A stretch of 64,000 bases of DNA, taken from Haloarcula hispanica ATCC 33960 (GTDB lineage Archaea > Halobacteriota > Halobacteria > Halobacteriales > Haloarculaceae). Location of the stretch: assembly GCF_000223905.1 (NCBI RefSeq), contig NC_015948.1:1116001-1180000 (forward strand). Direction: 5' to 3'. Each line of letters begins with the position of its first letter. Position 1 is the first letter of the stretch. The notes under the pieces were generated by a model. It ran no database searches. It saw nothing but the letters and a program-made list of their open reading frames with translations, and was not told where the DNA came from. The position numbers and the translations under genes are program-made. Positions 11,138-46,823 of this stretch are shown here, piece after piece.

Positions 11138-11172
11138 TGGAGAACACAATTCAGGCATGTTACGTATGCCTG

Positions 11173-22016: not shown

Positions 22017-22040
22017 TGCACGGAAAAACTGCCAAGGCGC

Positions 22041-22053
22041 GCATAAGCCTTTT
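22041..22053. promoter_or_regulatory. Shared divergent promoter of aglB and the aglG-like gene
   Basis: GCATAAGCCTTTT lies 28 bases before the ATG at 22074 on the plus strand, and its complement (CTTATGC) about 28 bases before the ATG of aglB on the minus strand, so the two TATA boxes overlap in the 57-base gap. Confidence 0.5.
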
Positions 22054-22073
22054 GACCTCTGTGCGAGCGCAGG

Positions 22074-23048
22074 ATGGAAACGCCTAACAGCACCGGTGGC
22101 ACACCACCGACCATGCGAGTCTCGGTCGTGCTCTGTACGCACACGATGGAGCGGTACGACGACTGCCGGGCGGCGGCCGAGAGTGTCTTAGCCCAGACCT
22201 ACGACGACGTGGAACTCGTACTGGTCTCGGATGGTAACCAAGAAGTGTACGAACAGTACGACTCTGACTACGGCGACCGGGACGCTGTCATGACTCACTG
22301 CAACGATGCAAACGTCGGACTGCTAGAGAGCCGGAACAACGGGGCCGGAGTCGCCACCGGTGACGTAGTCGCGTTCATCGACGACGACGCAATCGCCGAT
22401 GAAGAGTGGGTCGCGGCGCTAGTCGATGCCTACGAACGACACGACGCCCTCGCGGTCGGCGGCCGAATGACGCCGGCGTGGGTCGCCGGCAAACCGAGCT
22501 TTCTCCCCGAGGAGTTCTACTGGCTCATCGGCGTCACCCACCGTGGCTTTGGCCCGAATGGCGACCCCGACGAACCCGGCGTCGTCCGCAACACCTTCGG
22601 CTCGAACATCTCCTTCGACCGGGACGTGTTCCTTGAACTGGGCGGCTTCGACGACGATATCGGCGGCCGCCAGGGCGAGAAGAACCTCCAGGGCGGGGAG
22701 ACGGAACTCTGTGCGCGCTTGCGAACGGAATACGACGAGGGAGTGTACTACACCCCGGACGCGCTCGTCGCGCACAAGATATTCGACTACCGAACCGACC
22801 CCGGGTGGCTCGTCGACCGCGCGTTCTGGCAGGGGTACTCGAAGCGCGGCATGGAGGTGTTTGTACCGGAATCGACCGGCGAGGAGTCCGATTTCCTCAG
22901 CGACCTCCTGTTTCGGTTCCTCCCGTTACGTCTCCGTGGACTCGTCGAATCTCCGTCGCTCGGCGCAGTCCTGCAGCTGGTCTTCCTGTTTCTTCTCACC
23001 AGCAGTGTCGGCGTGGGATACCTTTACGGAATGTACGTCTGGAGATAG
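22074..23048 (+). CDS. aglG: GT2 glycosyltransferase, AglG-like
   Basis: Inverting GT-A enzyme adding a sugar, probably a hexuronic acid, to dolichol-phosphate glycan on the cytoplasmic side. VSVVLCTHTMERYDDCRAAAESVLAQTYDDVELVLVSDGN is nearly diagnostic of AglG/AglI proteins; DVVAFIDDDAIADEEW carries the DxD metal motif, and GGETELCARL the acceptor-site Glu. A C-terminal helix (LGAVLQLVFLFLLTSSVGVGYLYGMY) anchors it in the membrane. The ATG at 22074 is used because of TATA spacing; MRVSVVL at 22113 is the alternative. AglG assignment is by resemblance, not by tree. Confidence 0.8.
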   Translation: METPNSTGGTPPTMRVSVVLCTHTMERYDDCRAAAESVLAQTYDDVELVLVSDGNQEVYEQYDSDYGDRDAVMTHCNDANVGLLESRNNGAGVATGDVVAFIDDDAIADEEWVAALVDAYERHDALAVGGRMTPAWVAGKPSFLPEEFYWLIGVTHRGFGPNGDPDEPGVVRNTFGSNISFDRDVFLELGGFDDDIGGRQGEKNLQGGETELCARLRTEYDEGVYYTPDALVAHKIFDYRTDPGWLVDRAFWQGYSKRGMEVFVPESTGEESDFLSDLLFRFLPLRLRGLVESPSLGAVLQLVFLFLLTSSVGVGYLYGMYVWR

Positions 23049-23072
23049 CACTGACCGGTCTACAGTACGACG

Positions 23073-24176
23073 TTACTCAACGTATCCAAGGTCCTGAAGT
23101 CGCTCTTGGACCTCTTCTGCCTGTTCGTTCCTTTTGACATGGGTATCAGTACCTGCTTCCGTCATCGATACACGTCCATCGGTGCTGGTAACGGTGTAGT
23201 CGTTGGTTGCGAGTCGGAGTGAAGCCGTATTGTGCCAGGGCGCAATTGTCAGCGTATACGACCTGGATTCTGATCGAATATCGATACCGTTCCACTCCTC
23301 GGGCGGATCTATGCCGGCTTGAGTAGCGATCATCGGCCCAATGTCGAGGAGACTACACCGATCTCCAGTAAGCGAAATATCGTTGCTGACAATGGGAACG
23401 GTGACCAGCTTATCGGCTGTTCGCCTGCGCTGTGGTTGATGATAGTAGTACCCCTCTTCCCCGAATTCATCGCCGTGATCTGAGGTGAATATGAACGTCG
23501 GATCACCATCGAGATCCATCAAAAGATCTTCAATGACGGTATCGACTCTTGAGAGGGCATTTTTATAGGCCGATGTAATCTCTTGGTGTTCGGAATCCTT
23601 GAGCGAGGACGGTGAAAACAAGGCTTTCCTATCGAGTGACCTCGAAATGGCGTCATCACCACGGCCATATGGCCGATGGCTACCCATTAAATGCACCCAC
23701 ATGAACCGAGGCCCAGTAGCTTCGTTGAACTGCTCTATTGCTTGCTCGACAACCGCTTTATCAGTCGGAAGATCGGACATTTTCGCATGTGGCGGAAAGA
23801 AGCGATGGTAGACTTTTCGAAGAAGATCAAACTGCCCGAGAATCTCCCGTCGGTTGCTGCCGCGATTGCCTGCATCAACGAAATTCTCGTACTTATCGAA
23901 CCCCTGATTGAAATTGAACACTTCGTCAAGTTGTGGGCTCGGAGCTAGACCGATTGTCGTGTACCCGGCGTTCGACATGACTTCGGGTATTGTTGGTCCA
24001 GCTACAGCCGACTTCATCGTTGCCTGGTACTGACTAGACAGGAGGCCTGCTAGACTCGGCCTGGTGTAATGGCCGACTGTCGTTCCCGATTGTGTTGGGA
24101 ATCCCGAAAGAAACTCCATCTCTTCGATGTAGTCATACCGGACCGAATCAGCTGTAATCAGCACGATATCGTTCAT
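23073..24176 (-). CDS. Alkaline phosphatase/sulfatase-superfamily protein
   Basis: N-terminal NDIVLITADSVRYDYIEEM gives the first metal Asp; FTSDHGDEFGEEGYYYH near residue 240 gives the DH metal pair. The nucleophile segment is GHYTRPSLAGLLSS, with Thr (not Cys) before RPS, so the formylglycine of true sulfatases cannot form here. 367 residues, no signal peptide or membrane helix, hence cytoplasmic. It ends in LQDLGYVE. AT-richer than aglB, in a run with the next two genes. Possible roles are transfer or removal of phosphate- or sulphate-linked groups on glycan precursors; unproven. Confidence 0.8.
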   Translation of the reverse strand: MNDIVLITADSVRYDYIEEMEFLSGFPTQSGTTVGHYTRPSLAGLLSSQYQATMKSAVAGPTIPEVMSNAGYTTIGLAPSPQLDEVFNFNQGFDKYENFVDAGNRGSNRREILGQFDLLRKVYHRFFPPHAKMSDLPTDKAVVEQAIEQFNEATGPRFMWVHLMGSHRPYGRGDDAISRSLDRKALFSPSSLKDSEHQEITSAYKNALSRVDTVIEDLLMDLDGDPTFIFTSDHGDEFGEEGYYYHQPQRRRTADKLVTVPIVSNDISLTGDRCSLLDIGPMIATQAGIDPPEEWNGIDIRSESRSYTLTIAPWHNTASLRLATNDYTVTSTDGRVSMTEAGTDTHVKRNEQAEEVQERLQDLGYVE

Positions 24177-24232
24177 TTACTTGGGATTGACAGTCGGGCA
24201 TTATATCCCTTCTTGAATCAGGTTTCGAAGTT

Positions 24233-25198
24233 TCAGGAACGGAGAGTATGAACGGCATATACGGCGCCACCGATAATATTGTTTATTACTCGGAGAATAA
24301 GCTGCATTACGACTCCGAACGTCAACGCGACACCGTCTCCGACTCCCACCGAAGTGAACAGATATAGATACGCGCTCTCACGCACCCCAAAGCCTTGGAT
24401 TGATATCGGCAAAAAGAGGAAGAGTTCCACTAGTGGAATAAATACAAAAAAGTACACGAGTGGTATCTCAATCCCAAGCCCCAAGGCGACGACGTAGTTG
24501 CTGGCGATCAGTAAGACTCGGAACACGACCGAAAGTAAAAGTGCAATGACCACTGCTCGTTTGGCTTGACGATACTCGTACACTGCAGTGTACAATCTTT
24601 CAGCCCGGTTCCCGATGTCGAGCACTTGTATGTCAAAAATCGTTGTTTCTAGGACTGGACGTAACAGGTCAGTAAATAGCAATAGTGGTATCGTAATTAT
24701 CCCGACCGCACAGCCGAGGAGTACCATATCTGCGATCCGAGTCGGAACTAGTTCGTAGCCAAATGCGACCGCAACCAAAACGATACACAAGATCGAGTAG
24801 AGGCCAGCAATCCGCTCAATCACGACAGAAGAAACTGATGCGGATCCGTCGTTTGTATCCGCATAGAGGTAGTACATCCGTGCAGTGTCTCCACCGATAA
24901 TTGATGGGAGGAACGCATTGAAGAACTGGCCGATGTAGTAATAAACCCAAGCGGTGAGGAGCGTTAATTTTATACCTTTCACAGAAAGCAGAACTCGCCA
25001 CTTCCAAGCGCTGAGGCCGACACCAAGAACACTTAGTCCAACAGCGATAATTAGTGTGACTGGCTCAAGCGTTTGGAGATGTTCAATGAGTGTGTCGAAT
25101 CCGACTCTACTGATCACATACCAGAGTAGTATTACACTGATAGAAACGCGAAGCAAAGCCGAGAGGATGCTACGGATGTCTGTGTTTCTTCTTGACAT
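24233..25198 (-). CDS. UPF0104 / lysylphosphatidylglycerol synthase-type membrane protein (AglD C-terminal half-like)
   Basis: 321 residues with about eight membrane helices: VSISVILLWYVISRVGF, LIIAVGLSVLGVGLSAWKWRVLL, then the family signature YYIGQFFNAFLPSIIGGDTARMYYL, and more helices to the C-terminus. In Haloferax AglD, a domain of this type is fused behind a GT2 domain; here the adjacent upstream gene encodes the GT2 part. A flippase or lipid-carrier function is likely. Reads on the minus strand 25 bases after the GT2 gene, so cotranscribed. Confidence 0.8.
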   Translation of the reverse strand: MSRRNTDIRSILSALLRVSISVILLWYVISRVGFDTLIEHLQTLEPVTLIIAVGLSVLGVGLSAWKWRVLLSVKGIKLTLLTAWVYYYIGQFFNAFLPSIIGGDTARMYYLYADTNDGSASVSSVVIERIAGLYSILCIVLVAVAFGYELVPTRIADMVLLGCAVGIITIPLLLFTDLLRPVLETTIFDIQVLDIGNRAERLYTAVYEYRQAKRAVVIALLLSVVFRVLLIASNYVVALGLGIEIPLVYFFVFIPLVELFLFLPISIQGFGVRESAYLYLFTSVGVGDGVALTFGVVMQLILRVINNIIGGAVYAVHTLRS

Positions 25199-25223
25199 AC
25201 TAATACAGGGTGTCAGCTATAGG

Positions 25224-26258
25224 TCACTTGTTTTCCGCGCCACCGCCGATAACTACTTCCACACGGTAGGGGTCTCTCTCAATGTAGTGTAACTTTGTAA
25301 TCATCTCCGCCAGAAATCCGAACATAATCAAAATAAGGCCAAATAGAACGAGTGCAACCGTTAGTACAAGTCGGGGAAGATTTGGCAGTAGCGGGACACC
25401 CAATACGTACTTCGAGAACACTGCATGAATCCCGATTAGCATCCCTATCCCAAACGAAACCAATCCGAACCCACCGAGGAAGTGAACCGGTCGGGTTGAG
25501 TACCGGTTCCAGAATACCTGAAACAAGAGGTCAACAAAGCCCCTTATGAGTCGTTTCGTGCCGTATTTTGAACTGCCCTCCGTCCGGGGGCGATGGTTAA
25601 CTGGGATTTCTGTAATTCTGTAGCCCCGGTTGTACAATTTTGCCGGAATATACCGGTGACCCTCTCCATACAACTCTATTTCGTTAAGAGCATCTGACCG
25701 ATATGCCTTCAGAGTACAACCGAAATCGTGGATATCTGGCCCGGTCCAGCGTGCCATCCGTGTCTGTATCGCGGATGGTATCGTCTTTGTCAACGGGTCG
25801 TTCCGGTCTCGCCGCCAGCCACTGACGCAATCATAGCTATCGGATTCGCTGTCCCCACTTATCAACATATTGAGGAGGTCCGGAATGTCTTGTGGGTCGT
25901 TCTGTCGATCAGCATCAAGAGTTACGATAAATTCGCCAGTTGCTTGTTTGATACCCGCGTTCAAGGCTGCACTTTGTCCAAAGTTGCGGGACAGTAATAA
26001 TCCGAGAACGTTCTCATTGTGTTCTGCCAAGTCACGGATAACGCTCCTAGTACCATCGGTACTACCATCATCAACGATAACGATGTTATATGGCGAAAAT
26101 GCCGGTTCGTCCTGGAATACTGACTGGATTTCCTCGATTAGTGGCTCGACATTATCCACTTCATTGTACGCTGGCAGTACAACGGAGGTTCGAACCTTGT
26201 CATGGTCTTCACCTGTGAATTCACTTGCGTTACCCCGTACGTCCTCTGTCGTCGCCAT
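25224..26258 (-). CDS. Polyprenyl-phosphate GT2 glycosyltransferase (DPM1/GtrB-like)
   Basis: Loads a sugar, probably mannose or glucose, onto dolichol phosphate. TSVVLPAYNEVDNVEPLIEEI and IVIVDDGSTDGTRSVI start the GT-A fold, and VTLDADRQNDPQDIPDLL gives DxD. IPVNHRPRTEGSSKYG is the membrane-interface motif of the DPM family. Two C-terminal helices (FLGGFGLVSFGIGMLIG and LVLTVALVLFGLILIMFGFLAEM) match the GtrB group. 344 residues. It is followed by the UPF0104 gene and preceded by a TATA-like TAATAAACCT at 26291-26300. Confidence 0.86.
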   Translation of the reverse strand: MATTEDVRGNASEFTGEDHDKVRTSVVLPAYNEVDNVEPLIEEIQSVFQDEPAFSPYNIVIVDDGSTDGTRSVIRDLAEHNENVLGLLLSRNFGQSAALNAGIKQATGEFIVTLDADRQNDPQDIPDLLNMLISGDSESDSYDCVSGWRRDRNDPLTKTIPSAIQTRMARWTGPDIHDFGCTLKAYRSDALNEIELYGEGHRYIPAKLYNRGYRITEIPVNHRPRTEGSSKYGTKRLIRGFVDLLFQVFWNRYSTRPVHFLGGFGLVSFGIGMLIGIHAVFSKYVLGVPLLPNLPRLVLTVALVLFGLILIMFGFLAEMITKLHYIERDPYRVEVVIGGGAENK

Positions 26259-26476
26259 TATGTGATGCCGTGACTGTGATTCTTCAAGCAGGTTTATTAA
26301 CAGTTGTCATTCACAGTACTGCCCACGATAGAAATCATATAGAGTCGTTGTATCGGTAGTTGTTAGTAATTGTCTTCTGGGGCTGGAGAAGACTCAGTAA
26401 TCTCAGCACGAAGAACAAGTTATGATAACCATGTGCAGAGGGTACTCTCGTAAAATCGCACAGACTATTACAGTCA

Positions 26477-28195
26477 GTGGGTAATCAAGAAGAAATGCCC
26501 TCTAATCTGTGGAACAGAATCAGTAAGTCGGTCCGACGTGAGCCGGTTGTCCCGATCATTGCGCTCGCTGCGTTCCTGTTGATGTTCTTCGGTACCTGGC
26601 GACTGCGGCCGCATCTGACGTTTCCGGACGAAACCGGCGCTATCGAACTCGCTCTCAGGATGGGATACGAGCAGAACCCCTTCATCGATAACTTCCGGAA
26701 GGGTGGGAACCTTCACCTCTACCTTCTGGCGCTCTCTTTTGTCCCGGTGACGCTGTACTGGCTCGTGACCGGACAGTTCGGCGACATCATGTCGGGCGCA
26801 GCTAGCGTCGGCAGCTCGCCGAGCTGGGGTGTGTCGCCTGATCTTCTCACAGCCTTCTACGACGTGCTGTTCGCCGGTCGGCTAGTATCTGTCCTGTTCG
26901 GTGTTGGGACTGTTGTCGTCCTCTATTACCTCGGTAGAGAACTACTGGACCGCCGTGCCGGAATCCTTGCGTCCGTTTTTCTCACGACTTCTGTCGGGTA
27001 TGTCCTCACCGCCCACTACGCAACTGAGGACGTCCCGATGACGTTCTTCCTCATGCTCGGGTTCCTGCTAACGGTTCGTGCGTTTCATTCGAGAGAGACC
27101 AGAACGCTGTTGGCTGCCGCACTGGTCGCTGGCCTGGCAGCGTCAACGAAAGCAACGGCCGGGCTCCTCGTTCTTCCGATCGCTATCGTCATCATCGAAC
27201 GCCACTGGGACGGGTCGAGGACCGTTGGTGAGTTCGTCAAAGCGGTTTGGAGGTACCCGACGCTAACTATACTCAGCTACGTCACTACAACGCCATCGAT
27301 ATTCGTCCATCCGGGTTCATGGGCCGACGAGATATCTCGATATATCTACCGAAGTACGAGCGATTCTGTTGCGTACAATTGGTCGGACCCGGGGTGGCTC
27401 ATCCAGCTCGCACACCTCGCCGAAGGGCAGGGAATCATGCTATTCCTGTTTTCTATACTGTCCGTACTGCTTGTCATCGCCTTCCTCTTGCGGGGTACCC
27501 TCGACAGTGCGGTTTGGCTGTTGCTCGTCTATGCCATCCCGTACTTCATCGTCATCACGCAAGGGAATATGACACAGTTCCCTCGGGTAATGCCGCTCTT
27601 CCCGATTCTCGCGGTCCTCGCTGGTATCGCTGGCTCGGAGTTGAGTCAGTTCTCCCATCCGGTCCGTCTAGCCGGGATCGGACTTCTAACGCTTGTCATT
27701 GTCTTTTCTGGCGTACACACGACCGTTGGTGTCGCAGATATTAACGAATCACGTCAGGAGGCCACGGCGTGGACACACGCCAACCTAGATAGCTCCGACA
27801 CTGTTGACGTGTACTCGCAGCAAGTGTATCTCCCAGAATTTCCAGACGAGACAACTGTGAACCGATATGAAATCCACTCCACCTTCCCCCGAGAAAACTG
27901 GCAGCCAGGGCTTGAACGTCTGGACTGTAACGCGCCCGAGTACGTCGTGCTCTCCAGTTACCACTACTTCCGCTTTTTCAAGGATCCGTCCGTGTTCCCG
28001 GATGTGACTGAACGCATGTCGGCGCTGTTTGCCGAGGAAGACTACGAAATCGTCCGGACGTTCGGTCCGCCGGTGAACACCGAACTCAGCGCGGAGCGAA
28101 AGTTCAGAGACAGCGCCGGACTTTCGTCGTTCCCCGAGGACGGAAATCCGACTATCCTCGTGATGAAGCGGATAGACGATGAACCGACCTGTTAA
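26477..28195 (+). CDS. GT39/ArnT-like membrane glycosyltransferase (AglS-like)
   Basis: Polytopic GT-C enzyme using a polyprenyl-phosphate sugar on the outer face. A first helix (VVPIIALAAFLLMFFGTWRL) is followed by RPHLTFPDETGAIELALRM, which holds the catalytic Asp-Glu of the first external loop, and about ten further helices; the last 150 residues form an extracytoplasmic domain. 572 residues. In Haloferax, AglS transfers the last mannose from dolichol phosphate to the glycan; the neighbouring DPM-like and flippase genes would supply that donor. The annotated GTG at 26477 may be replaced by the ATG at 26495. Confidence 0.78.
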   Translation: MGNQEEMPSNLWNRISKSVRREPVVPIIALAAFLLMFFGTWRLRPHLTFPDETGAIELALRMGYEQNPFIDNFRKGGNLHLYLLALSFVPVTLYWLVTGQFGDIMSGAASVGSSPSWGVSPDLLTAFYDVLFAGRLVSVLFGVGTVVVLYYLGRELLDRRAGILASVFLTTSVGYVLTAHYATEDVPMTFFLMLGFLLTVRAFHSRETRTLLAAALVAGLAASTKATAGLLVLPIAIVIIERHWDGSRTVGEFVKAVWRYPTLTILSYVTTTPSIFVHPGSWADEISRYIYRSTSDSVAYNWSDPGWLIQLAHLAEGQGIMLFLFSILSVLLVIAFLLRGTLDSAVWLLLVYAIPYFIVITQGNMTQFPRVMPLFPILAVLAGIAGSELSQFSHPVRLAGIGLLTLVIVFSGVHTTVGVADINESRQEATAWTHANLDSSDTVDVYSQQVYLPEFPDETTVNRYEIHSTFPRENWQPGLERLDCNAPEYVVLSSYHYFRFFKDPSVFPDVTERMSALFAEEDYEIVRTFGPPVNTELSAERKFRDSAGLSSFPEDGNPTILVMKRIDDEPTC

Positions 28196-28300
28196 TGACA
28201 ACTATATGTCTAGATCACTCCCCGGGACCCGTTCTCTCCACCCACGGACACTACAGGGTAGCCAGCGAATCACCCGTGACACTGGGCGAAAGTGGCATCT

Positions 28301-29446
28301 ATGACTGACGAATCGCTCCAGAGCGTCTGCGTCGTGACCCATCCCCTCGCCGCTGCTGGCGAGAACGCCACACGAAGCCTACTCGACATCCTGTCGGCTG
28401 TGACATCAGTCGCGCTCGTGACGGCTGACCTGCCGGCTGATTCCGAGATTCGCGACCGGCACGAACTCGTTGAGCTCACGCGAAAAGGCGCGGGCGACTC
28501 CGTCGTCACCGCCGCCGTCCGGTTCCTGCTGAACCAACTCCGGATGTGTCGCGTTATTGCTGACCGTGACGAAGACGTAGTCCTTTTTTTCGGCGCAACG
28601 TCGTACCTGCTTCCCATTATCGCGGCTCGGTTGCTCGGTAAAACGGTTCTCGTCGAACCCCGCGGCGACGTGCCGCTGACGCTCCGGCTGAACTGGGAAC
28701 AGCAGTTGCCGGACCCGGTGGCTGCCGGGCTCGCCGGTGCCGTCCGTGCACTCGAACGAGCCGGCTTCGCCGCGGCTCACGGGGTCATCACGTACACGCC
28801 CGAGATGGCCCGCCAACTGGACCTGCATCCGGAATCCCCGACCGTGTATCCGATGGGGGCGCGCTACGTCCGGACGGACGAATTTCGCGTCCAGCAGCCC
28901 TACGCCGACCGCGACCGCGTCGTTGGGTTCCTCGGACGGCTCGACGAAGAGAAGGGCATCCGGGAACTCGCTTCTGTCGCCGCGGAACTACCTGGTGACG
29001 TGACGTTCCGGTTCATCGGCGACGGTGACCTCCGTGAGTGGCTGGAAACCGAACTCGCGTCTGAAATCGAACGTGGCGCAGTCGAACTCACCGGCTGGGT
29101 TGATCACGACGACGTACCCGATCAACTCAACGATCTCTCGCTGCTCGTGTTGCCGTCACAGCCGACGGAGGGACTACCGACGACAATTCTGGAGGCGCTG
29201 GCCTGCGGAACGCCGGTACTGGCCTCGCCGGTTTCGGGCGTTCCAGACGTTGTCCGCGAGGGCGAAACCGGCTTCCTGCTCGATTCACGGGAGCCGGCGG
29301 CGCTTCGACAGACAATACTCGATATTCTGGACCGAGACGACCTCGACAGCATCAGCGAGAACGGACGCGATCGAATCGATACCGAGTACAGCTTTGAGGC
29401 GGCCTGCGAGCGGTACAGGTCGATACTTGTGGCGTGCAATCGGTAG
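28301..29446 (+). CDS. GT4 glycosyltransferase
   Basis: GT-B fold, retaining. The ATG at 28301 (MTDESLQSVCVVTHPLAAAGENATR) is preferred to the GTG nine bases earlier. VVGFLGRLDEEKGIRELASVAAEL begins the nucleotide-sugar domain near residue 205; LVLPSQPTEGLPTTILEALACGTPVLASPVSGVPDVVREGETGFL is the donor-binding E-x7-E segment of the family. 381 residues, no membrane helix apart from a hydrophobic stretch near 100. GC and codon use match the chromosome, unlike the genes 1 kb away. Sugar specificity cannot be read. Confidence 0.88.
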   Translation: MTDESLQSVCVVTHPLAAAGENATRSLLDILSAVTSVALVTADLPADSEIRDRHELVELTRKGAGDSVVTAAVRFLLNQLRMCRVIADRDEDVVLFFGATSYLLPIIAARLLGKTVLVEPRGDVPLTLRLNWEQQLPDPVAAGLAGAVRALERAGFAAAHGVITYTPEMARQLDLHPESPTVYPMGARYVRTDEFRVQQPYADRDRVVGFLGRLDEEKGIRELASVAAELPGDVTFRFIGDGDLREWLETELASEIERGAVELTGWVDHDDVPDQLNDLSLLVLPSQPTEGLPTTILEALACGTPVLASPVSGVPDVVREGETGFLLDSREPAALRQTILDILDRDDLDSISENGRDRIDTEYSFEAACERYRSILVACNR

Positions 29447-29449
29447 GCG

Positions 29450-30850
29450 CTACACCATCTGTAACACGCGCTCTCTGATTTCGCGGTCCGTTGCCATGCC
29501 GAGACCGTACGCGACGACGCCGAGTGCGACTAAGCCACCAAGCTTCAAAAGCGTCGATGGCGGGAAGATGGTTGACGCCGCGTACACCACTGCGCCCATC
29601 ATTAACGCTGTGACCGTCTGCCTTCCGAGCGCCCGCCAGTTTGCTGTCACAGTGATGAACCGCCGGAGATACGCGATCTGAATGACGAGCGCGATGCTGA
29701 CTGTCGTTATTGTTGCCGCCGCTGCACCGAACGATCCGAGTTCCGGGACCAGTAACAGATTGAGTACAACGTTTGCAACGAGGGTCAGCGCTGCCGTCCG
29801 GAATACGAGATTCGGGTGGCCGATCCCCGTGAGCGTCCGCTGGATCAGGATTCTCGGGGCCTGCAACAACTTCTCCGCCATCAGGAGGATGAGGATTAAC
29901 CCACCCGTGTCGAAGTCATAGACGAGTTGCATGAATGGATCGGCGAGTATCGCTACACCGACTACGGCGGGGATGACAAGCAGGAGACCATATGTGAAGC
30001 CTTCGCTTAGGGCCGTTTCAATGCGACTGTACTCATTGCGTGACGCCCACTCGCTGATAGATGGAAACACTGCCTGGCTTAGGGCTTGGCTAGCCATTAC
30101 TGCGACTACACTGACCTTCCAAGAAGCCTCGTATACGGCAACAGCGGTCTTTGACGCGAAGTATGCCAACACGAGCGTGTCTGCCCAGTTGTATGCTAGG
30201 GAACTCACACTATTGAATGATGTATACTTCGAGAAACTCCAGAGGTCTCTGACAGTTTCCCAAGTTGGGATAGATAGCGTACTTGATAAGGCGAAGTAAA
30301 ATATGACAAACTTCACGACAACTCCAATCAAGACACCATATAACAGAGCAAATATCTTCAACCCGGCTATGATTAGCGCGATACTTGTTACTATACGAAT
30401 TACTTCACCAAAGAGTTCGATAAGAGAGCTAAGCGCCACTCGCCCTTCACCACGAAGGGCTGCTCCGGTAAGCCATCTCCCGGTACTGGAAATAATAAAT
30501 ACAATCAGTAAGGGTACGGCCGCCACACCAATGTATTCGTCTACATAGCCTTCAAGTACGAACAATCCGAGAGACATAATTACAATTGGAGCGAGTGTTA
30601 TGAGGTATCCTGCAGTCAAGTACGACCCACGCTGTTGAGTTGTCGTTTCGCTGATTCGCTTCTCTATCCCTGTATCGACTCCAAGCCGCGCTCCGGTCAT
30701 CAACACGCTCGTGACCGCATCAAAGGTGAAAAAGATTCCAAGAACCGTTCCTCCGAGAGTTTGAGCAAAATATGCGGTTCCAACAAAACCAATTAGACTC
30801 AGTACGATATTACTGGCGTATATAACAACACTTGACCGGTCGATATCCAT
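29450..30850 (-). CDS. Wzx/MOP-superfamily oligosaccharide flippase (AglR-like)
   Basis: 466 residues and about 14 membrane helices, starting VVIYASNIVLSLIGFVGTAYFAQTLGGTVLGIFFTFDAV, the usual Wzx opening. It should move a lipid-linked sugar or glycan from the inner to the outer face of the membrane for AglB or the GT39 enzyme. Composition changes within the gene: the part encoding the N-terminal half (about 30.0-30.85 kb) is about 35-42 % GC, that encoding the C-terminal half about 57 %. Convergent with the GT4 gene with a 3-base gap. Confidence 0.85.
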   Translation of the reverse strand: MDIDRSSVVIYASNIVLSLIGFVGTAYFAQTLGGTVLGIFFTFDAVTSVLMTGARLGVDTGIEKRISETTTQQRGSYLTAGYLITLAPIVIMSLGLFVLEGYVDEYIGVAAVPLLIVFIISSTGRWLTGAALRGEGRVALSSLIELFGEVIRIVTSIALIIAGLKIFALLYGVLIGVVVKFVIFYFALSSTLSIPTWETVRDLWSFSKYTSFNSVSSLAYNWADTLVLAYFASKTAVAVYEASWKVSVVAVMASQALSQAVFPSISEWASRNEYSRIETALSEGFTYGLLLVIPAVVGVAILADPFMQLVYDFDTGGLILILLMAEKLLQAPRILIQRTLTGIGHPNLVFRTAALTLVANVVLNLLLVPELGSFGAAAATITTVSIALVIQIAYLRRFITVTANWRALGRQTVTALMMGAVVYAASTIFPPSTLLKLGGLVALGVVAYGLGMATDREIRERVLQMV

Positions 30851-32500
30851 CGATATCTGTGGATTTCTTCCATATGTTTATTATTCTGTCCTTATTAAAA
30901 CAACGAGGGTTCTTAGCGATGCTAGATATTGTCTCTCAACTCGACTCTCCAATTGTACCGTATTTAATCATCCGGGCCTGGACAGGGTGCCATTTCAAAA
31001 CATTCATTCGACCACCAAATCAACACAGTACAGATGAGCTTCTCTGATTGGTTTTTTGATACAGTGGACCGCCTACAATCAGATCCTTCTCCAAAGAATC
31101 TCGAGATAGCACTCAGAAAGTTATGGGCCGGCTTGCTCGGGAGATTCGCTCCAAAGCAACAGGAAGGGCAGGTGGTTTGGGACGAAGACTGGGATATATT
31201 GGTCATCTTGGACGGATGCAGGGCTGATGCCATGGAAGAAATCATACAGGGAACTTCTTATCAATCTCTTTTTGCTGATAGCAAACTCGAGACGCGCTGG
31301 TCAGTCGGCGGTACCAGCTCTGAATGGATCAAAAAAACGTTTAATGAAAGACATTCAGCAGAGATCCAAGAAACCGCATATATCACAGGCAATCCATATA
31401 CGGACCAGATACAATACGATGAGTTTTCAGAGTTCACTCATTTTGGGATCGCCAGTACGGAGTATGATATTCGGACGGTTTCGCCTCGGAAACTGACTAA
31501 TCACGCGATTAACACTTGGAGAAAACGCGACGAGAAGGGCGTTGATAGAATGATTGTTCATTACATGCAACCACATGCACCCTTCCGGTCGCGACCAGAG
31601 TGGTTTCGTGAATTCAAGGGCACAAAGAAGTTCGGTAGCAAAGTCTGGTGGCGCCTCTGTGATGGCACCGTTTCGCACGATGACTTCTGGACTGCATATA
31701 TTGACAACCTAGAGTGGATACTGGAAGAAGTTAGTATCCTCTCAACGTCTATTGATGGCTCCATCGCTCTAACCGCTGACCACGGCAATGCAAAAGGTGA
31801 ATGCGGGGTATATGGCCACCCGAAAGGAGTTCCGGTCAGTGCTGTAAGAGAGGTCCCGTGGATTACACTAGACGGGATAGATACTGAGGAATATACCCCT
31901 GAGTATAATGTCTCTGATAGCGGCGGAGATGATCAAAAGCCTGCCCGTGAATCGCAACTTGAAGCCTTAGGTTATAAGTGATAATCATATCTGAATACAC
32001 TCCATGGCTATCTGGCTAGTAGAGAGACGACAAGAATAACTGTTAATTCCCCCATCTCCCACCATCAGTATGCCGCGAGTTCTCATCGGACCGACCAAAA
32101 CAGACATTCATAACAACGAATACGGGAAGAGTTACAATCTCCTGAATAACCTGTACGACGATAATTTTACTGTCGATATATACACGAGATCAGTTTCTGA
32201 TACTCTTAGACCGGAAAACGTTACTGTGTATCCGCTTGGGGGCTCTAACAGGATCTCGTTCTATAGTTATTTGTATTATAGACTTTTAAGAGAACTTCGG
32301 GAGGGATCTGTTGATATATATCACCACATGAATCTCAGCTACAGGTGGTTCAATCCAATCCTCGTTTCAGAGCTTCATGACAATGTTCCTGTCGTCGTTG
32401 GACCGTGCCAAACAGGGCATGCCATCATGGCTGAGGAATTCAATCGGATGCTTTCTTCTTGGGTAGGGAGAAACCTTCCGAGGCCATTTACCGATCCACT
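30000..32500. other. AT-rich mosaic block inside the glycosylation island
   Basis: Hand counts on 60-base lines give 35-42 % GC at 30301, 30361, 30781, 31321, 32161 and 32221, against 57-60 % at 29521, 29701 and 32941. The block contains the N-terminal half of the flippase, a whole AlkP-superfamily gene and the 5' half of a GT4 gene. No transposase or attachment site is visible at either edge. Confidence 0.7.
31034..31981 (+). CDS. AlkP/sulfatase-superfamily protein, AT-rich
   Basis: VILDGCRADAMEEI near residue 58 supplies the first metal Asp; ALTADHGNAKGE and VYGHPKG near 250 supply the Asp-His and His ligands. The nucleophile region appears to be SVGGTSSEWIKKTF, offering Ser or Thr but no Cys. 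315 residues, cytoplasmic. The C-terminus ESQLEALGYK fits the tail shared by the other three members in this island. Its GC is clearly lower than that of the flanking chromosome, pointing to recent acquisition. Confidence 0.76.
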   Translation: MSFSDWFFDTVDRLQSDPSPKNLEIALRKLWAGLLGRFAPKQQEGQVVWDEDWDILVILDGCRADAMEEIIQGTSYQSLFADSKLETRWSVGGTSSEWIKKTFNERHSAEIQETAYITGNPYTDQIQYDEFSEFTHFGIASTEYDIRTVSPRKLTNHAINTWRKRDEKGVDRMIVHYMQPHAPFRSRPEWFREFKGTKKFGSKVWWRLCDGTVSHDDFWTAYIDNLEWILEEVSILSTSIDGSIALTADHGNAKGECGVYGHPKGVPVSAVREVPWITLDGIDTEEYTPEYNVSDSGGDDQKPARESQLEALGYK

Positions 32501-33251
32501 TCACACAATTGTTGACGCGACTCGCGATGTAATCCTTGATCCACCTCGGATGGATTTGTTCAAGCGAACGCTTGACGCCGCAGACCGAATTGTGGTTGTC
32601 GATCAAGAAGCCTACGAGATGTATGCTGACCTCGTTGACGAATCGAAGCTCCGGACGATCCCGCTGGGCGTTGATCCGGACGTCTTCGAGTACAGTGAAC
32701 CGGACGACTCACATGAACTCGTGGCCATCGGTAGCCTTCGGGAACGGAAAGGCTATGATATCTTGATCGAAGCACTTGATCAAATCCAGCAGGAATATCC
32801 CGAAGTCCAGCTCCACGTCTTTGGTGACGGGCCGCAAGAAGACGAATTGGTCGCTCAGGTCAAGCATCTCGATCTAGACGAAAACGTCACGTTCCACGGG
32901 TATGTTGACCAGTCTATTGTCCGAGAACACTTATCCCGAGCACGTGCCTTCGTCCACCCTTCTCGGTCAGAGGGCTTTTCCATGGTCCGTCTGGAAGCCA
33001 TGTCGACCGGCTGTCCAGTGGTCGTTACCAATGTTTCTGGAGCAAACGAAATGGTCCGCGACGGGGAGGAGGGCTTTGTCGTTCCGACAGAGGAACCGGA
33101 ACCAATCGCAGACGCCGTCACCACCTTGCTCTCCGATTACGAACTCACGAAACAGATATCCAGACAGGCACGAGACCGTGTTGAGGAGAAGTACGACTGG
33201 CGGAAAATCGCGGAGGAGTACCTCGACCTGTACCGTTCGCTGTCTGGCTAA
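32070..33251 (+). CDS. GT4 glycosyltransferase with mosaic composition
   Basis: GT-B fold enzyme of 393 residues: MPRVLIGPTKTDIHNNEYGKSY is the start, HELVAIGSLRERKGYDILIEALDQI the beginning of the C-terminal domain near residue 215, and ARAFVHPSRSEGFSMVRLEAMSTGCPVVVTNVSGANEMVRDGEEGFVV the donor-binding part. The 5' half (to about 32.5 kb) is near 35-40 % GC, the 3' half near 60 %. Since the N-terminal domain binds the acceptor, such a hybrid gene could change acceptor choice while keeping the donor. TATA-like TAACTGTTAATT lies about 30 bases before the ATG. Confidence 0.88.
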   Translation: MPRVLIGPTKTDIHNNEYGKSYNLLNNLYDDNFTVDIYTRSVSDTLRPENVTVYPLGGSNRISFYSYLYYRLLRELREGSVDIYHHMNLSYRWFNPILVSELHDNVPVVVGPCQTGHAIMAEEFNRMLSSWVGRNLPRPFTDPLHTIVDATRDVILDPPRMDLFKRTLDAADRIVVVDQEAYEMYADLVDESKLRTIPLGVDPDVFEYSEPDDSHELVAIGSLRERKGYDILIEALDQIQQEYPEVQLHVFGDGPQEDELVAQVKHLDLDENVTFHGYVDQSIVREHLSRARAFVHPSRSEGFSMVRLEAMSTGCPVVVTNVSGANEMVRDGEEGFVVPTEEPEPIADAVTTLLSDYELTKQISRQARDRVEEKYDWRKIAEEYLDLYRSLSG

Positions 33252-33319: not shown

Positions 33320-34297
33320 ATGGTCCTCGTAGTGCTGGGTATCGATGCACTCGACCCGGAACTAGTAGACTCGACGGCACATCCGAATTTGACGCTCGCT
33401 GACCACCACGCTATCGAGACGATCAGGAGCGTCGAGGGCGGCCCCAGCACGCACGAACTCTGGCCGACGATCATTACCGGGCTCAGGCCCCCGGAACACG
33501 GCATCACGCTTGACGACGGCGTTGCCTGGGAGAACCCCGTCCTCCGGTTCGGGAGTGCTGCCGCGGACTACCTTCTCCCGTCGGGGCTGCAGACGCGTCT
33601 CGGCGCGTGGCTACTGAACAACACCGAACAGGACGCGTTCCGGATCCCGGCGACCTACTACGAGGAGAACGGCCTGTCGACAGTGTTCGACGGCCGGGAG
33701 GCGGCTCCAATCGGCATCCCCAACTACGTCATCGACCCGGACACGGAGGACCGCGAACACAGCCTCCGGCGGAACCTCGGCGACCTCTTCGAGCGCGACC
33801 TCGAAGCGAAAGGCGGCCACTCGTCGACAGACCCGGCGCTGTTCTACGAGCAGTGCCTCGAAATGTCGATGGTTCGCCTCGCTCGCGCACGTCGGGCGCT
33901 CAGAGGTGGGCGACACGAACTGGTGTTTGCATACACGAGCGGGCTCGACCTCATCGGCCACGTTGCGTACGAACAACCGTCTCTACAGGACCGCGCCTAT
34001 GAAGAACTCGACGAGTTCGTCGGCGAGGTTCGAGACGACCTCGGTGACAACGACGAGCTACTGCTCGTCAGCGACCACGGTCTGCAGGACGGCGTCCACA
34101 CCGATGAGGCGATGGTTGCGGGGACCGACGCAGCCATGGTCGACGCAATCGAGAGTGTCGTCGACGTCCGGGCGGCTATCGAAGCCGAACTCGACGAAAC
34201 AGACCACACGTCGACACCGCAGGTGACGGCGTCGGACGACGGCGACCGGTCGGGGGAGGAAGTCAAAGAGCACCTCGAAGATCTCGGGTATATGTAG
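33320..34297 (+). CDS. AlkP-superfamily phosphodiesterase-like protein
   Basis: MVLVVLGIDALDPELV gives the first metal Asp; STHELWPTIITGLRPPEHGI holds the probable Thr nucleophile in the pattern of nucleotide pyrophosphatase/phosphodiesterases; LLLVSDHGLQDGVHT gives the DH pair near residue 255. 325 residues, no signal peptide. It ends VKEHLEDLGYM and its stop lies two bases before the ATG of the next AlkP-superfamily gene, so the two form an operon. Confidence 0.8.
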   Translation: MVLVVLGIDALDPELVDSTAHPNLTLADHHAIETIRSVEGGPSTHELWPTIITGLRPPEHGITLDDGVAWENPVLRFGSAAADYLLPSGLQTRLGAWLLNNTEQDAFRIPATYYEENGLSTVFDGREAAPIGIPNYVIDPDTEDREHSLRRNLGDLFERDLEAKGGHSSTDPALFYEQCLEMSMVRLARARRALRGGRHELVFAYTSGLDLIGHVAYEQPSLQDRAYEELDEFVGEVRDDLGDNDELLLVSDHGLQDGVHTDEAMVAGTDAAMVDAIESVVDVRAAIEAELDETDHTSTPQVTASDDGDRSGEEVKEHLEDLGYM

Positions 34298-34299
34298 CC

Positions 34300-35754
34300 A
34301 TGTCGGGCGATCCAAACATCTTGCTGGTCATCCTCGACAGCGTCCGTGCACAGAACCTCAGCGCCTACGGCCACGTCAACGAGACGACGCCGTTTCTGGA
34401 CTCGTTCGCCACAGAGCGGGCGACGCTGTACGAGCAGGCCCGAGCGCCTGGTGCGCGGAGCGTCACGAGCCACGCGAGCATTTTCTCCGGGTTGCACGTC
34501 GAAGAACACGGTATCGTCTCGGCGGGGCATCGGCTCGACCCGTCGGCGTCAGTCTTCGCACAGCTGCGAGAAGACGGGTACAGCACCGGCGTGTTCACCG
34601 AAAATGACTGGCTGACGGCCGTCGATGTCGGACTCCGGGACGGGTTTGACGAGATCGTCGGGGCGCGGAACGTCCCGTTCCCGGGCGCAGTCAACCCCCA
34701 CGAGTTTGTCTCGAACGAGGGACGGGGACAGTACGCGGAGTTCGTCAGACTCGCGCTGACAGACGACGCGCCGCTCCGGTCGCTGGCAAACGGTGTGGCG
34801 ACGAAACTCCAGTCCGATTACAAGCGGTTCCTCCCGGATAGCGTCAGAGCATCGACGCCGGCGGACGTCTACGTGGATTCGCTGCTGGACTGGAGCGACC
34901 GACAGGACGGGCCGTGGGCGGCGTGTCTCAACCTGATGGACGCCCACATTCCGTACGAACCGATGCCGGACTACGACCAGTGGGGGGGCTCGGAGGCGTC
35001 GTCGTTGCAGGCTTCCTTCGAGGACCAGAAGTGGGACTTCAACGGCGGACACCGCCCGTGGTGGCAGAAGAAGGCGGTCGAGTCGCTGTACGACGGGGGG
35101 ATTCGCCAGATGGACGCGGAACTCGAACGGCTCGTTTCGTCGCTCGAACGGCGTGGTGAGCTTGATGACACGCTTCTCGTCATCACGAGCGATCACGGCG
35201 AGGGCTTCGGCGAACAGAGCGACGTTCGGCCGGGTGTCCGGGTCGCCGAACACGGCGTCGCGATTCACGACAGCGTACTCCACGTCCCGCTCATCGTGCG
35301 CTATCCGGGCCAGACCGAGTCTCATCGGGTCGACCGTCCCGCGTCGCTGGTCGAATTTCCGCGGGTCGTGAACCGGCTTCGGGCCGACGATCAACAGACT
35401 GCCGGCTTCTGTCCCGACGGACCGGTCCTCGCTACTGCGGTCGGCCTCGACGAGCCGCTGCAGGAACGCGCCGGTGCGTACGTCGGGGACCTGTCGCCGT
35501 GGACCGCCACGTCGCGAGCGGTGTTCAAAGACGACAGTGAGGGAGTTGTCAAGTACTGTACTAACCGCGACCGCGCCGCCACCGTCGTCAGCCGCGACGC
35601 CCAGACGTCGTACAAAGTGTCCGACGGCGGTGCGGAACACGTCGACAGCGCATTCGAATCGATAGAGGAACTCGACGTCAAGACGACGGGCGAGGACTTC
35701 GACGACCTCGACGACGGGACGTACCAGCGGCTGGAAGACCTCGGCTACGTCTGA
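34300..35754 (+). CDS. Sulfatase-like AlkP-superfamily hydrolase
   Basis: 484 residues. ILLVILDSVRAQNLSAYGHVNETTPFLDSFA is the sulfatase-family opening; GARSVTSHASIFSGLHVEEHG is the active-site segment with Thr/Ser where sulfatases have the modifiable Cys; LLVITSDHGEGFGEQSDV gives the metal DH near residue 295, followed by AEHGVAIHDSVLHVPLIVRYP. The tail YQRLEDLGYV is shared with its neighbours. No membrane segment. It follows the previous AlkP gene by two bases and its last 10 bases overlap the convergent TrmB gene. Confidence 0.84.
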   Translation: MSGDPNILLVILDSVRAQNLSAYGHVNETTPFLDSFATERATLYEQARAPGARSVTSHASIFSGLHVEEHGIVSAGHRLDPSASVFAQLREDGYSTGVFTENDWLTAVDVGLRDGFDEIVGARNVPFPGAVNPHEFVSNEGRGQYAEFVRLALTDDAPLRSLANGVATKLQSDYKRFLPDSVRASTPADVYVDSLLDWSDRQDGPWAACLNLMDAHIPYEPMPDYDQWGGSEASSLQASFEDQKWDFNGGHRPWWQKKAVESLYDGGIRQMDAELERLVSSLERRGELDDTLLVITSDHGEGFGEQSDVRPGVRVAEHGVAIHDSVLHVPLIVRYPGQTESHRVDRPASLVEFPRVVNRLRADDQQTAGFCPDGPVLATAVGLDEPLQERAGAYVGDLSPWTATSRAVFKDDSEGVVKYCTNRDRAATVVSRDAQTSYKVSDGGAEHVDSAFESIEELDVKTTGEDFDDLDDGTYQRLEDLGYV

Positions 35755-36593
35755 TGGGCCGTTTCGACGCTCTCGTACTCCCAGATCAGATCGAAGTACC
35801 GCTTCATCCCGGCGACGAACGACCCGTTGTCCGTAATCGCGGCCTGGCGCATGTGGTTGGGAACGTCCGGCTCCTCGACCAGTAGAATCGCCTCGCCGCT
35901 GTCGTAGTCCATGCTCGGGTCGACGAGCGTGCCGCGCCAGGGGAGTTTCTCCGTGCTGAACCGCAGGTCGACAGCGGGGAACTCCGCCGTCAGCCGCTCG
36001 ACGATGTCAGCCTGGATGGCTGCCTTCTCCGGTGGGAGTTCGTCGGGATGCAGGAAGAGAACGCTGACTTCGACCCCACGGTCGAGTGTCTTGGCCAGTG
36101 CACGCTCGACGTTGTCGAGGTAGGCGAAGCTATTGGTGATAACCCGAAGCGTCTCGGCGGCGTCGTCGTATAGCCGTCTGGTCTCGCGTTCGCTCGGTTC
36201 ACCCACGTCGACGACGTGGAACAGTTCGGCCGTCGGCGAGATGTCCTCGCTGGCGCGGTCGAACCGCGGTTCGTACTCGGCGAGGAACGCATCGCGGTAG
36301 GAGTCGATGTCGGCGGCGAACGATTCGTATGACTGTCTGTGGTTCTCGACCGCCCGGTCGAGGATTTCGCCGGGCGATTTCGGCTGGTATTCCTTGGGAC
36401 GACCGGGAATCACCTTGATGAAGCCGCGGTCGGACAGCGCCTCCAGCACGCCGTAGACGCGGGCCTTCGGGATGCCGCTCGCTTCAGCGAGATTCGGGGC
36501 CGTCGTCCGGCCGAGCGAGAGCAACTGTTCCAGCGCCGTCGCCTCGTATTCGGTCAGCCCGACCAGGTCGAACACGTCCGCAGGGTCGCTCAT
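35745..36593 (-). CDS. TrmB-family transcriptional regulator
   Basis: 282 residues. The N-terminal TrmB winged helix is clear: DLVGLTEYEATALEQLLSLGRTTAPNLAEASGIPKARVYGVLEALSDRGFIKVIPGRPKEYQPKSPGEIL. The rest is the TrmB C-terminal regulatory domain, which in characterised members binds sugars. Located between the sulfatase-like pair and aglJ; control of glycosylation or sugar-nucleotide supply is a reasonable guess. Divergent from a 35-residue Cys-containing protein gene with an inverted repeat in the 95-base gap. Confidence 0.88.
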   Translation of the reverse strand: MSDPADVFDLVGLTEYEATALEQLLSLGRTTAPNLAEASGIPKARVYGVLEALSDRGFIKVIPGRPKEYQPKSPGEILDRAVENHRQSYESFAADIDSYRDAFLAEYEPRFDRASEDISPTAELFHVVDVGEPSERETRRLYDDAAETLRVITNSFAYLDNVERALAKTLDRGVEVSVLFLHPDELPPEKAAIQADIVERLTAEFPAVDLRFSTEKLPWRGTLVDPSMDYDSGEAILLVEEPDVPNHMRQAAITDNGSFVAGMKRYFDLIWEYESVETAHQT

Positions 36594-44899: not shown

Positions 44900-46823
44900 C
44901 GCCATTCACCTCCGTCACCGCGGGCAGCGTAAATTTGAATATCGCGCCGTCGTCGGACGGTTCGACCCAGATGCGGCCGTCGTGGCGCAGGACGATTCGC
45001 TGGCAGACGGCCAGCCCGATGCCGGTGCCCTCCGTGTCGTGGGCACCGGCGCGGTGGAAGATGTCGAACACCTCCTCACGGTCCGCCGCCGGAATCCCCG
45101 GCCCGTTGTCCGAGACGGTGAACGTCACCATGCCGTCGTCTTCTTCGGCGCTGACCTCGATACGGGGTTCGATGCCGGCCTCCGTCGCGTACTCGATGGC
45201 GTTTTCCAGCAGATTCTGGAACACTTGGCCGACCTGGTTCGAGTCGGCGTCGACGCGTGGCAGTGACTCTGCCGTGATGGTAGCGTCCACCTCCTCTATT
45301 CGCATCTGTAAGGCGTCCAGCGTCCGGTCGAGGACCGCTTCCGGGTCCGTCTCCTCGAAGTCACCCGCCTTCGTCTCGACGCGGGAGTACCGGAGCAGGG
45401 CGTCGACCATCTCCTGCATCCGGTGGGCACCGTCGACGGCGAAGGCCATGTACTCGGCGGCCTCCTCGTCGAGGTCGTCGCCGTATTCGCTGTCCAACAG
45501 GTCGACGTAGCTCGACACCATCCGGAGCGGTTCCTGCAGGTCGTGGGACGCGATGTAGGCGAACTGCTGGAGCGCCTCGTTCGAGCGCTCTAGTTCGGCC
45601 TGTTTCGATTTGAGCCGCGTCTCGCGTTCGATTCGCTCCAGCGCGGCAGCCGCCGTACTCGCGAGAATCTCAAGCAGGAACCGCTCGTCGCCGTCGAACG
45701 ACGCCACGGTCTCGGACCCGATACACAGCATCCCCTGGTCATCGAGCGGGAGACACAGGAGCGTCCGCATCGGCATCGCCGGCGCTGACGGGTTCGACAG
45801 TTTTTGATAATCCTCGATAACGGTCGGCTCGCTGGTGTGGAAAATACGGTTCTCGTCGCTGTCTGGCCCCATCGGCGGGAGATCCGCCGCCGTTTCCACG
45901 CCGGCGAAGTCGGTCGCCTTTGCCGTCGCGCCGATTGGATAGAGCGTGTCGTCGCCGCTGTCGTGGGACCATATCGCGGCGAGCGGCTGGTCGACGATAC
46001 GCTGTGCAATCTGTGTGACTGTGTCCGCGGCCGCAGTCTCTGTGCGGCTGTACAGCAATTCGTTCGTCGCGTCGCTGAGCGCCTCGACGCGCTCCTCGCG
46101 GCGTTTGAGGGCGGTGATATCTCTAGCTACACTGACGACCTGTTTGAGTTGTCCGCTGTCGTCGAACACCGGTCGATACCACGTCTCGAAGACGAGGTTG
46201 TCGACTTCCTGTGTCACGCGGACTTCCTCCCCGTCGAGGGCCTTCTCGACGGCGGTGATGATGTCCGGATACTCACTGTACGTCTCGAACACCGATGTCC
46301 CTTCGAGGTCGCCGGGTTCCATTCCGAGCCCTTCCAGCCCCTTCCCGGCTGAATACGTGAACACGCCGTCCGGGTCTAGCGTAAACACCACGACAGGGAG
46401 ATTCCCCATCAGGGTGTGGAGCTGTTCGCTCTGTTCTGCGTGTTTTCGTTCCCGCTCGCGGATGCTGGTCACATCGTGAATGAACGCCACAACACGGGTC
46501 TCGTCGCCGAGAGCAGCTCGCTTGAGCGTTACCTCGACCAGTTGGTCCGTGCTGTCGGGTCCCTCCGTTGCCCACTCGACCTGCGCCGAACCTGACGTGG
46601 CTGCCTCGGCTATCAGGTCGTTTGCGTCCGCCGTGGAGAACCCCGGCGGACTGAACTCGCCGACGTGCATCCCGACGATGTCGTCCGGAGTACACCCCAG
46701 GAGCGCGCCCGCGGCCTGGTTGGCCCGGACGACGGTTCCGGTGTCGGCGTCGTGGATCATAATCGGGTCCGGACTCGCCTCAAAAACGTCCTGATAGATA
46801 ACAGCGTCCTCTGTAGAAGCCAT
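44892..46823 (-). CDS. PAS-PAS-GAF histidine kinase
   Basis: 643 residues, soluble. PAS 1 about 5-125 and PAS 2 about 133-245, GAF about 250-400, coiled-coil linker, then phospho-acceptor H427 in [23 protein letters not shown], and a HATPase with [17 protein letters not shown] and [13 protein letters not shown]. It is the first gene of the cluster and is of the phytochrome-like SHDLQEPLR kinase type, unlike the other two kinases. No bilin- or haem-binding Cys/His is evident in the GAF domain; the signal is unknown. Confidence 0.92.

Follow-up and report, generated by a model that had tools for sequence, protein, structure and literature searches.

A surface-polysaccharide island of Haloarcula hispanica as a probable product of homologous exchange and reshuffling among Haloarcula species

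How AT-rich DNA whose borders lie inside genes came to stand among the surface-polysaccharide genes of Haloarcula hispanica ATCC 33960 is the question raised by the locus studied here. The window, i.e. the whole analysed stretch of 64,000 nucleotides (contig NC_015948.1, positions 1,116,001 to 1,180,000; all coordinates below are those of the window unless another contig or locus is named), belongs to a genome of 3,890,005 bases in three contigs and carries the H. hispanica cluster HAH_1202-HAH_1214. An initial annotation, made from the letters alone, had proposed that one AT-rich cassette was replaced here through homologous recombination within two border genes, a flippase and a GT4-type glycosyltransferase, with hybrid enzymes and perhaps a new surface glycan as the outcome. 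Our analysis points to a larger unit (~22.8-35.7 kb) with more crossovers: a replacement-type surface-polysaccharide island that most probably passed between Haloarcula species and was rearranged through homologous recombination, a reading to which we assign a probability of about 0.86.

The drop in guanine-plus-cytosine (GC) content between 30.0 and 32.5 kb is real, and its suggested level of 35-42% was too low: positions 30000-32500 contain 46.1% GC, 500-bp windows range from 44 to 48%, and isolated 250-bp or 60-codon windows alone fall to 39-44%. Both flanks, initially put at 57-60%, measured 58-65% in 500-bp windows. Among 1128 background windows of 2.5 kb from the same genome 3.1% were equally AT-rich, and the listed ones with less than 50% GC all came from a single other island (contig C3, 1602.5-1614 kb). 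Furthermore, a second and larger AT-rich block, overlooked when a single cassette was assumed, occupies positions 23051-26450 (no strand; 48.9% GC) and contains the gene aepG; its right edge at 26.45 kb is the start of continuous alignment to the relative G030. As had been proposed, composition does change within both border genes. GC at third codon positions (GC3) in the flippase gene is 0.42 up to codon ~219 and 0.68 thereafter (p 0.001, the lowest value that 1000 permutations allow). In the GT4 gene it changes near codon 180, rising from 0.46 to 0.63 (permutation p 0.017), and the position of this change is loose (95% range, codons 64-324).

By core DNA, the sister of the window's own sequence (W) is the species G001, with 96-98% nucleotide identity and a support of 1.0 in trees of the gene 64-2337 and of a distant locus; other close species show core identities of 90-93%, G030 being at 91-92%. 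In the sister, DNA related to 23.05-28.2, 29.42-33.2 and 34.2-35.6 kb is absent, and identity is ~74% at 33.2-34.2 kb. Haloarcula sebkhae JCM 19018 (G023) and Haloarcula japonica DSM 6131 (G007) keep the gene order of the window as far as 34.2 kb, with identities of 79-96%. In whole or in part, the hispanica-type gene set was found in seven genomes (H. hispanica, H. sebkhae, H. japonica, G030, G003, G019 and G004), which are scattered across the core tree; G001 and several other genomes carry a different gene set between the same anchors. Gene content in 25 relatives showed that the flank with aglB/aglG and that with the regulator are conserved in the genus, and that the genes between them vary, so that one chromosomal place holds different gene sets of similar functions across lineages, as in replacement islands. 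The AT-rich block itself is whole in 3 of 32 genomes, which agrees with the expectation that it would not be conserved in all relatives.

Tile by tile, the nearest relative changes repeatedly along the window: it is G001 to ~22.6 kb, H. sebkhae/H. japonica to 26.4 kb, G030 to ~27.1 kb, H. sebkhae/H. japonica to 27.9 kb, G030 to 29.4 kb with a G001-like tract at 28.4-29.03 kb, H. sebkhae/H. japonica again to ~33.0 kb, G030 with its kin G003 and G019 to 35.6 kb, and then G001. Both AT-rich blocks are H. sebkhae/H. japonica-like, and most of the GC-richer parts resemble G030, so that base composition for the most part mirrors the distribution of versions.

Several of these switches fall inside genes, with triplet permutation tests reaching their floor (p 0.0002) in four of them. 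In the AglG-type GT2 gene (22074-23048, plus strand; NF041394 above cut-off) the nearest relative shifts from G001 to H. sebkhae with an extreme at 22793, which together with the tile identities supports a left outer border in its 3' part at ~22.8 kb. The PMT-family gene (26477-28195, plus strand) is a G030-like/H. sebkhae-like/G030-like mosaic with crossovers at ~27274 and ~27898. The next gene, for a GT4-type glycosyltransferase (28292-29446, plus strand), is G030-like at both ends and G001-like in the middle, with crossovers at 28402 and 29035; its part at ~28.40-29.03 kb is nearly identical to the sister (98-100%), whereas in the 3' part a grouping of W with G001 was rejected by the approximately unbiased (AU) test (p 1.8e-113). 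The fourth is the GT4 gene at 32070-33251. Crossovers within these genes fit an exchange through homologous recombination between similar stretches. There was no significant change of nearest relative in the phosphodiesterase-like gene 33320-34297 (triplet test, p 0.58). At the TrmB-type regulator (35745-36593, minus strand; Pfam TrmB) identity to G001 returns to 97-98%, placing the right outer border at ~35.70-35.77 kb. Judged from these alignments, the exchanged unit would thus span about 22.8-35.7 kb, with several crossovers beyond those initially proposed.

It could be argued that the island is an old polymorphism, in which versions were retained for a long time and differentially lost with little recent transfer, and the deep divergence of the versions (22-50% third-position identity between them) would be in keeping with it. 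Yet the segments shared by W and G030 reach 94-97%, above their core level, and the tract shared with G001 reaches 98-100%, i.e. identities at or above those of the core, and a single gene carries both G030-like and G001-like segments. We therefore regard old polymorphism as very unlikely.

The borders of the AT-rich segment itself could be located more closely. Alignments to the G030, G003 and G019 loci end at 29427, 19 bp short of the end of the glycosyltransferase gene 28292-29446, and the flippase is wholly different there. The left border relative to these loci thus appears to be at 29428 (no strand), at the junction where the 3' ends of the convergent glycosyltransferase and flippase genes meet (29.43 kb), outside the flippase. 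On the right side, the GT4 gene 32070-33251 (plus strand) is H. sebkhae/H. japonica-like in its 5' part and G030-like in its last ~65 codons. Its first 480 bp group W with H. japonica and H. sebkhae with a support of 100, and the alternative W+G030 was rejected (AU test, p 1.5e-6); its last 195 bp group W with G030 with a support of 90, and the grouping with H. japonica and H. sebkhae was rejected (p 0.03). Third-position identity to G030 steps from 0.49 to 0.98 at codon 328 (319-331), and this step and the triplet bins place the crossover zone, the right border of the AT-rich segment, at 32950-33060 (no strand). The H. hispanica gene appears, from these trees and identities, to be a true hybrid with a crossover at ~33.0 kb. 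It should be added that at the protein level its 3' end is ~92% identical to both versions, and the functional effect of this crossover may for that reason be small.

The flippase (MOP-type, 29450-30850, minus strand; identified with Pfam) presents a different case. Profiles, change points and half-gene trees place a discontinuity near codon 200-210 of its 466 codons (~30.2 kb), delimiting an AT-rich N-terminal half. Amino-acid identity to G004 rises from 0.70 to 0.92 at codon ~210; no significant amino-acid step was detected against H. japonica, H. sebkhae, G052 and G220. The GC3 step, at codons 193-219, is present in W, H. japonica and H. sebkhae and absent from G004 and G052. In both half-gene trees (FastTree, complemented by a fixed-tree comparison of eight taxa) the clade of W and G004 are sisters, and the path between them is several times longer in the tree of the N-terminal half; separate branch lengths for the halves were favoured by the likelihood ratio (2 x 34.8; 69.5, 12 degrees of freedom). 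As H. japonica and H. sebkhae share the discontinuity, it would be older than the crossover in the GT4 gene.

These data bear directly on the possibility that a lone AT-rich cassette was replaced recently, in one event, and is bounded by the GC steps in the flippase and GT4 genes. It accounts for the flippase GC step coinciding with the loss of similarity to G004, and for the arrangement in G004 itself, where both border genes are present, 112 bp apart, without the 31034 gene between them. This arrangement fits entry of a segment between flippase and GT4, but in an ancestor of this version: the flippase step is common to H. japonica and H. sebkhae and hence predates any crossover specific to H. 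hispanica. Moreover, the recent crossover in GT4 lies at ~33.0 and not at 32.5 kb, the left border against G030-type loci is at 29.43 kb, and there are further crossovers. As one event, the single-cassette model is already contradicted, and we consider it very unlikely in general. Accordingly, what holds of the initial proposal is homologous replacement with crossovers inside genes, and not a single event bordered by both GC steps; hybrid enzymes hold for GT4, the ends of which conflict in their trees, and less so for the flippase, the halves of which disagree in branch lengths under one topology.

Another explanation would dispense with recombination and attribute the steps to domain-specific composition and rate, between the membrane lobes of the flippase and between the acceptor and donor domains of GT4. 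A mild amino-acid step of GT4 seen against a distant outgroup as well speaks in its favour. However, orthologues in G004, G052, G030, G003, G019 and G020 show no GC3 step, and the steps are therefore not a property of the protein domains. Furthermore, switches of nearest relative and AU tests are independent of rate differences between domains, and the sister species lacks the locus. Both the domain-rate and the composition explanation were rejected in a comparison of GC3 and identity change points among the orthologues, and we hold this explanation to be highly improbable.

AT-rich composition is frequent in haloarchaeal mobile DNA, and capture of the segment by a mobile element or plasmid was therefore also considered. 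No tRNA gene and no repeats of at least 20 bp were found across 22.5-36 kb, and none of the genes scanned has a transposase or integrase domain, in agreement with the initial annotation; the boundaries are thus free of hallmarks of illegitimate recombination or integration, as in replacement islands. The islands of the relatives, besides, occupy the same place. Such a capture appears extremely improbable.

Exchange and reshuffling of a replacement-type island by homologous recombination hence remains the preferred reading. The scattered distribution and the mosaic structure are observed directly, as is the conflict between the trees from opposite ends of GT4 and of the glycosyltransferase 28292-29446. 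The proposed course of events is as follows. The island of H. hispanica, which has aglB/aglG as its conserved left anchor and the TrmB-type regulator as its conserved right one, would have been composed from two versions, one AT-rich, as in H. sebkhae and H. japonica, the other GC-richer, as in G030 and its kin, within a chromosome closest to G001. Crossovers would have taken place in or beside conserved genes, namely at the 3' end of aglG, twice in the PMT gene, in the glycosyltransferase gene 28292-29446, at the 29.43 kb junction and in GT4 at ~33.0 kb, and an older exchange would have produced the discontinuity in mid-flippase. The direction, i.e. import into H. hispanica, and the order of events are what we infer from these patterns.

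A number of points weigh against this reading. The comparison uses one genome per species. The half-trees of the flippase share their topology for this group and disagree in branch lengths only; the Bayesian information criterion slightly prefers proportional branch lengths (9533.3 vs 9537.5), and the change points disagree, that of the third positions being at codon 297 and that of the amino acids at codon 210. The contrast between the 5' and 3' parts of GT4 is gentler against G003, G019 and G004 and partly reflects domain rate, because the outgroup G061 has an amino-acid step at the same place. The AU tests were run on quick trees, and some of their p values are only 0.01-0.03. Finally, no donor of the AT-rich halves emerged when half-genes were searched against 342 genomes of the order: for the flippase halves nothing outside the group was closer than G004 (N-terminal half, 69%), and for GT4 the search returned only the known Haloarcula set and a few distant genomes.

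With respect to the function of the island, the gene order from the left starts with the conserved anchor, AglB oligosaccharyltransferase (19191-22142, minus strand; NCBIfam TIGR04154, 929 bits against a cut-off of 450; AglB Pfam domains), followed by the AglG-type GT2 gene; with TIGR04154 and NF041394 both above their curated cut-offs, aglB and pathway glycosyltransferases stand together as in haloarchaeal N-glycosylation clusters. As a separate observation, parts of AglB at 19400-20800 diverge from the sister G001 (78-92%) more than their surroundings (mostly 92-99%). There follow a sulfatase-like gene of the alkaline phosphatase superfamily (23073-24176, minus strand; Pfam Sulfatase, 3.2e-23), a membrane protein of the LPG_synthase_TM family (24233-25198, minus strand; Pfam, 2.3e-40) and aepG (HAH_1206; 25224-26258, minus strand), three published primers of which match exactly at 26237-26258, 25224-25243 and 25722-25741 (PMC9943897, primer data). 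AepG is a dolichol-phosphate glucuronosyltransferase that makes dolichol-phosphate-glucuronic acid for acidic exopolysaccharide (EPS), and deletion of its gene leaves the S-layer N- and O-glycans unchanged (PMC9943897). Since aepG in the same island serves acidic EPS, the flippase, the 31034 protein and GT4, which stand in this order after the PMT-family gene and the glycosyltransferase 28292-29446, may act in making or exporting it.

The 31034 protein is encoded by an AT-rich gene (31034-31981, plus strand) and appears to be a distant sulfatase/alkaline-phosphatase-like protein: the D/H motifs are conserved, and Pfam (Sulfatase, 0.0016, below cut-off) and PDB matches (sulfatase, Mcr-1-like) are weak and sub-threshold. 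Its family is widespread in the order, 258 of 293 genomes carrying it, with best relatives outside the genus at 35-48%. A distant relative of this protein, together with a similar neighbour gene, is also found in the C3 polysaccharide island (1602.5-1614 kb; L058, 2500-14000), which has ~41% GC, is patchy in the genus, encodes three GT4-type glycosyltransferases, a flippase and sulfatase-like proteins, and possibly corresponds to the published EPS cluster HAH_1661-HAH_1667 (PMC5467301). No firm co-occurrence of the C3 island with that at 22.8-35.7 kb was found; stretches in common, two in number and 81-85% identical, occur in H. japonica only.

GT4 is followed by a phosphodiesterase/alkaline-phosphatase-superfamily gene (33320-34297, plus strand; Pfam, 1.4e-13; nearest G030), a sulfatase gene (34300-35754, plus strand; Pfam, 1.4e-35; nearest G030-type loci) and the regulator as the right anchor. 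In H. japonica the sulfatase gene is cut to its first 75 bp (92%; L023, oriented copy ~13961-14035). H. sebkhae (L022) retains a comparably decayed gene start at its right outer border, which is read as a deletion remnant of the same kind. Elsewhere in the window, a short dispersed repeat (2339-2478), with copies in many Haloarcula genomes, lies downstream of gene 64-2337; gene 10337-11158 has a lower GC (56%) and matches in H. sebkhae, H. japonica and G024, with none in the compared G001 and G030 regions. In the histidine kinase region 45400-46800, identity to H. japonica (81-91%) is at least that to the sister G001 (79-96%) in most tiles, others being mostly at 76-82%, and this region is possibly another recombination tract.

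The kind of surface-gene shuffling described here is already known elsewhere, and this locus is a new, finer-grained example between species. Replacement flexible genomic islands, exchanged by homologous recombination, were described in aquatic microbes, among them an archaeon (Lopez-Perez et al. 2014, PMC4033161). The present island resembles them in placing different surface-structure gene sets at one chromosomal place and in homologous recombination within similar flanks without marks of mobile elements. In those cases, however, complete clusters were reported, though not by way of a formal definition, to be swapped as a unit between strains of one species, whereas here sub-segments with crossovers inside genes form a mosaic among species of ~91% core identity; the locus therefore works like a replacement island at a finer grain and does not match every published case. 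The cell-wall island GI1 of Haloquadratum walsbyi, which has been compared with capsular switching, is likewise a haloarchaeal surface island made mosaic by homologous recombination, but it contains S-layer and cell-wall genes, varies within one species and has contributions from mobile elements (PMC4535781), and not an exopolysaccharide/glycosylation cluster beside aglB as here. In Haloferax, N-glycosylation clusters also have variable gene sets near aglB, and recombination inside aglJ and aglD was reported; these clusters are mostly vertical among close strains (PMC5867893), whereas here even the sister species has another version. The study of HAH_1202-HAH_1214 and AepG concerns the same locus, HAH_1206 being 25224-26258, and treats function; the accessible part of it discusses neither a mosaic origin nor the flippase, the 31034 gene and GT4 (PMC9943897), and, with literature coverage incomplete, an earlier report may exist.

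A further idea concerns the flippase: the break may fall between its N-terminal and its C-terminal lobe. Crossovers would then tend to exchange functional halves, an imported N-terminal half would change the lipid-linked sugar exported, and the hybrid flippase and GT4 together would act as an interspecies polysaccharide switch. We regard this as a rather doubtful conjecture. What the mapped crossovers do indicate is piecewise, mid-gene reshuffling of surface-polysaccharide genes between species of a model haloarchaeon, and trees built from one such glycosyltransferase or flippase gene may mislead. Moreover, the genetic tractability of H. hispanica and the EPS mutants already published make the effects of each imported segment on the polysaccharide, on virus sensitivity and on mating open to direct test.

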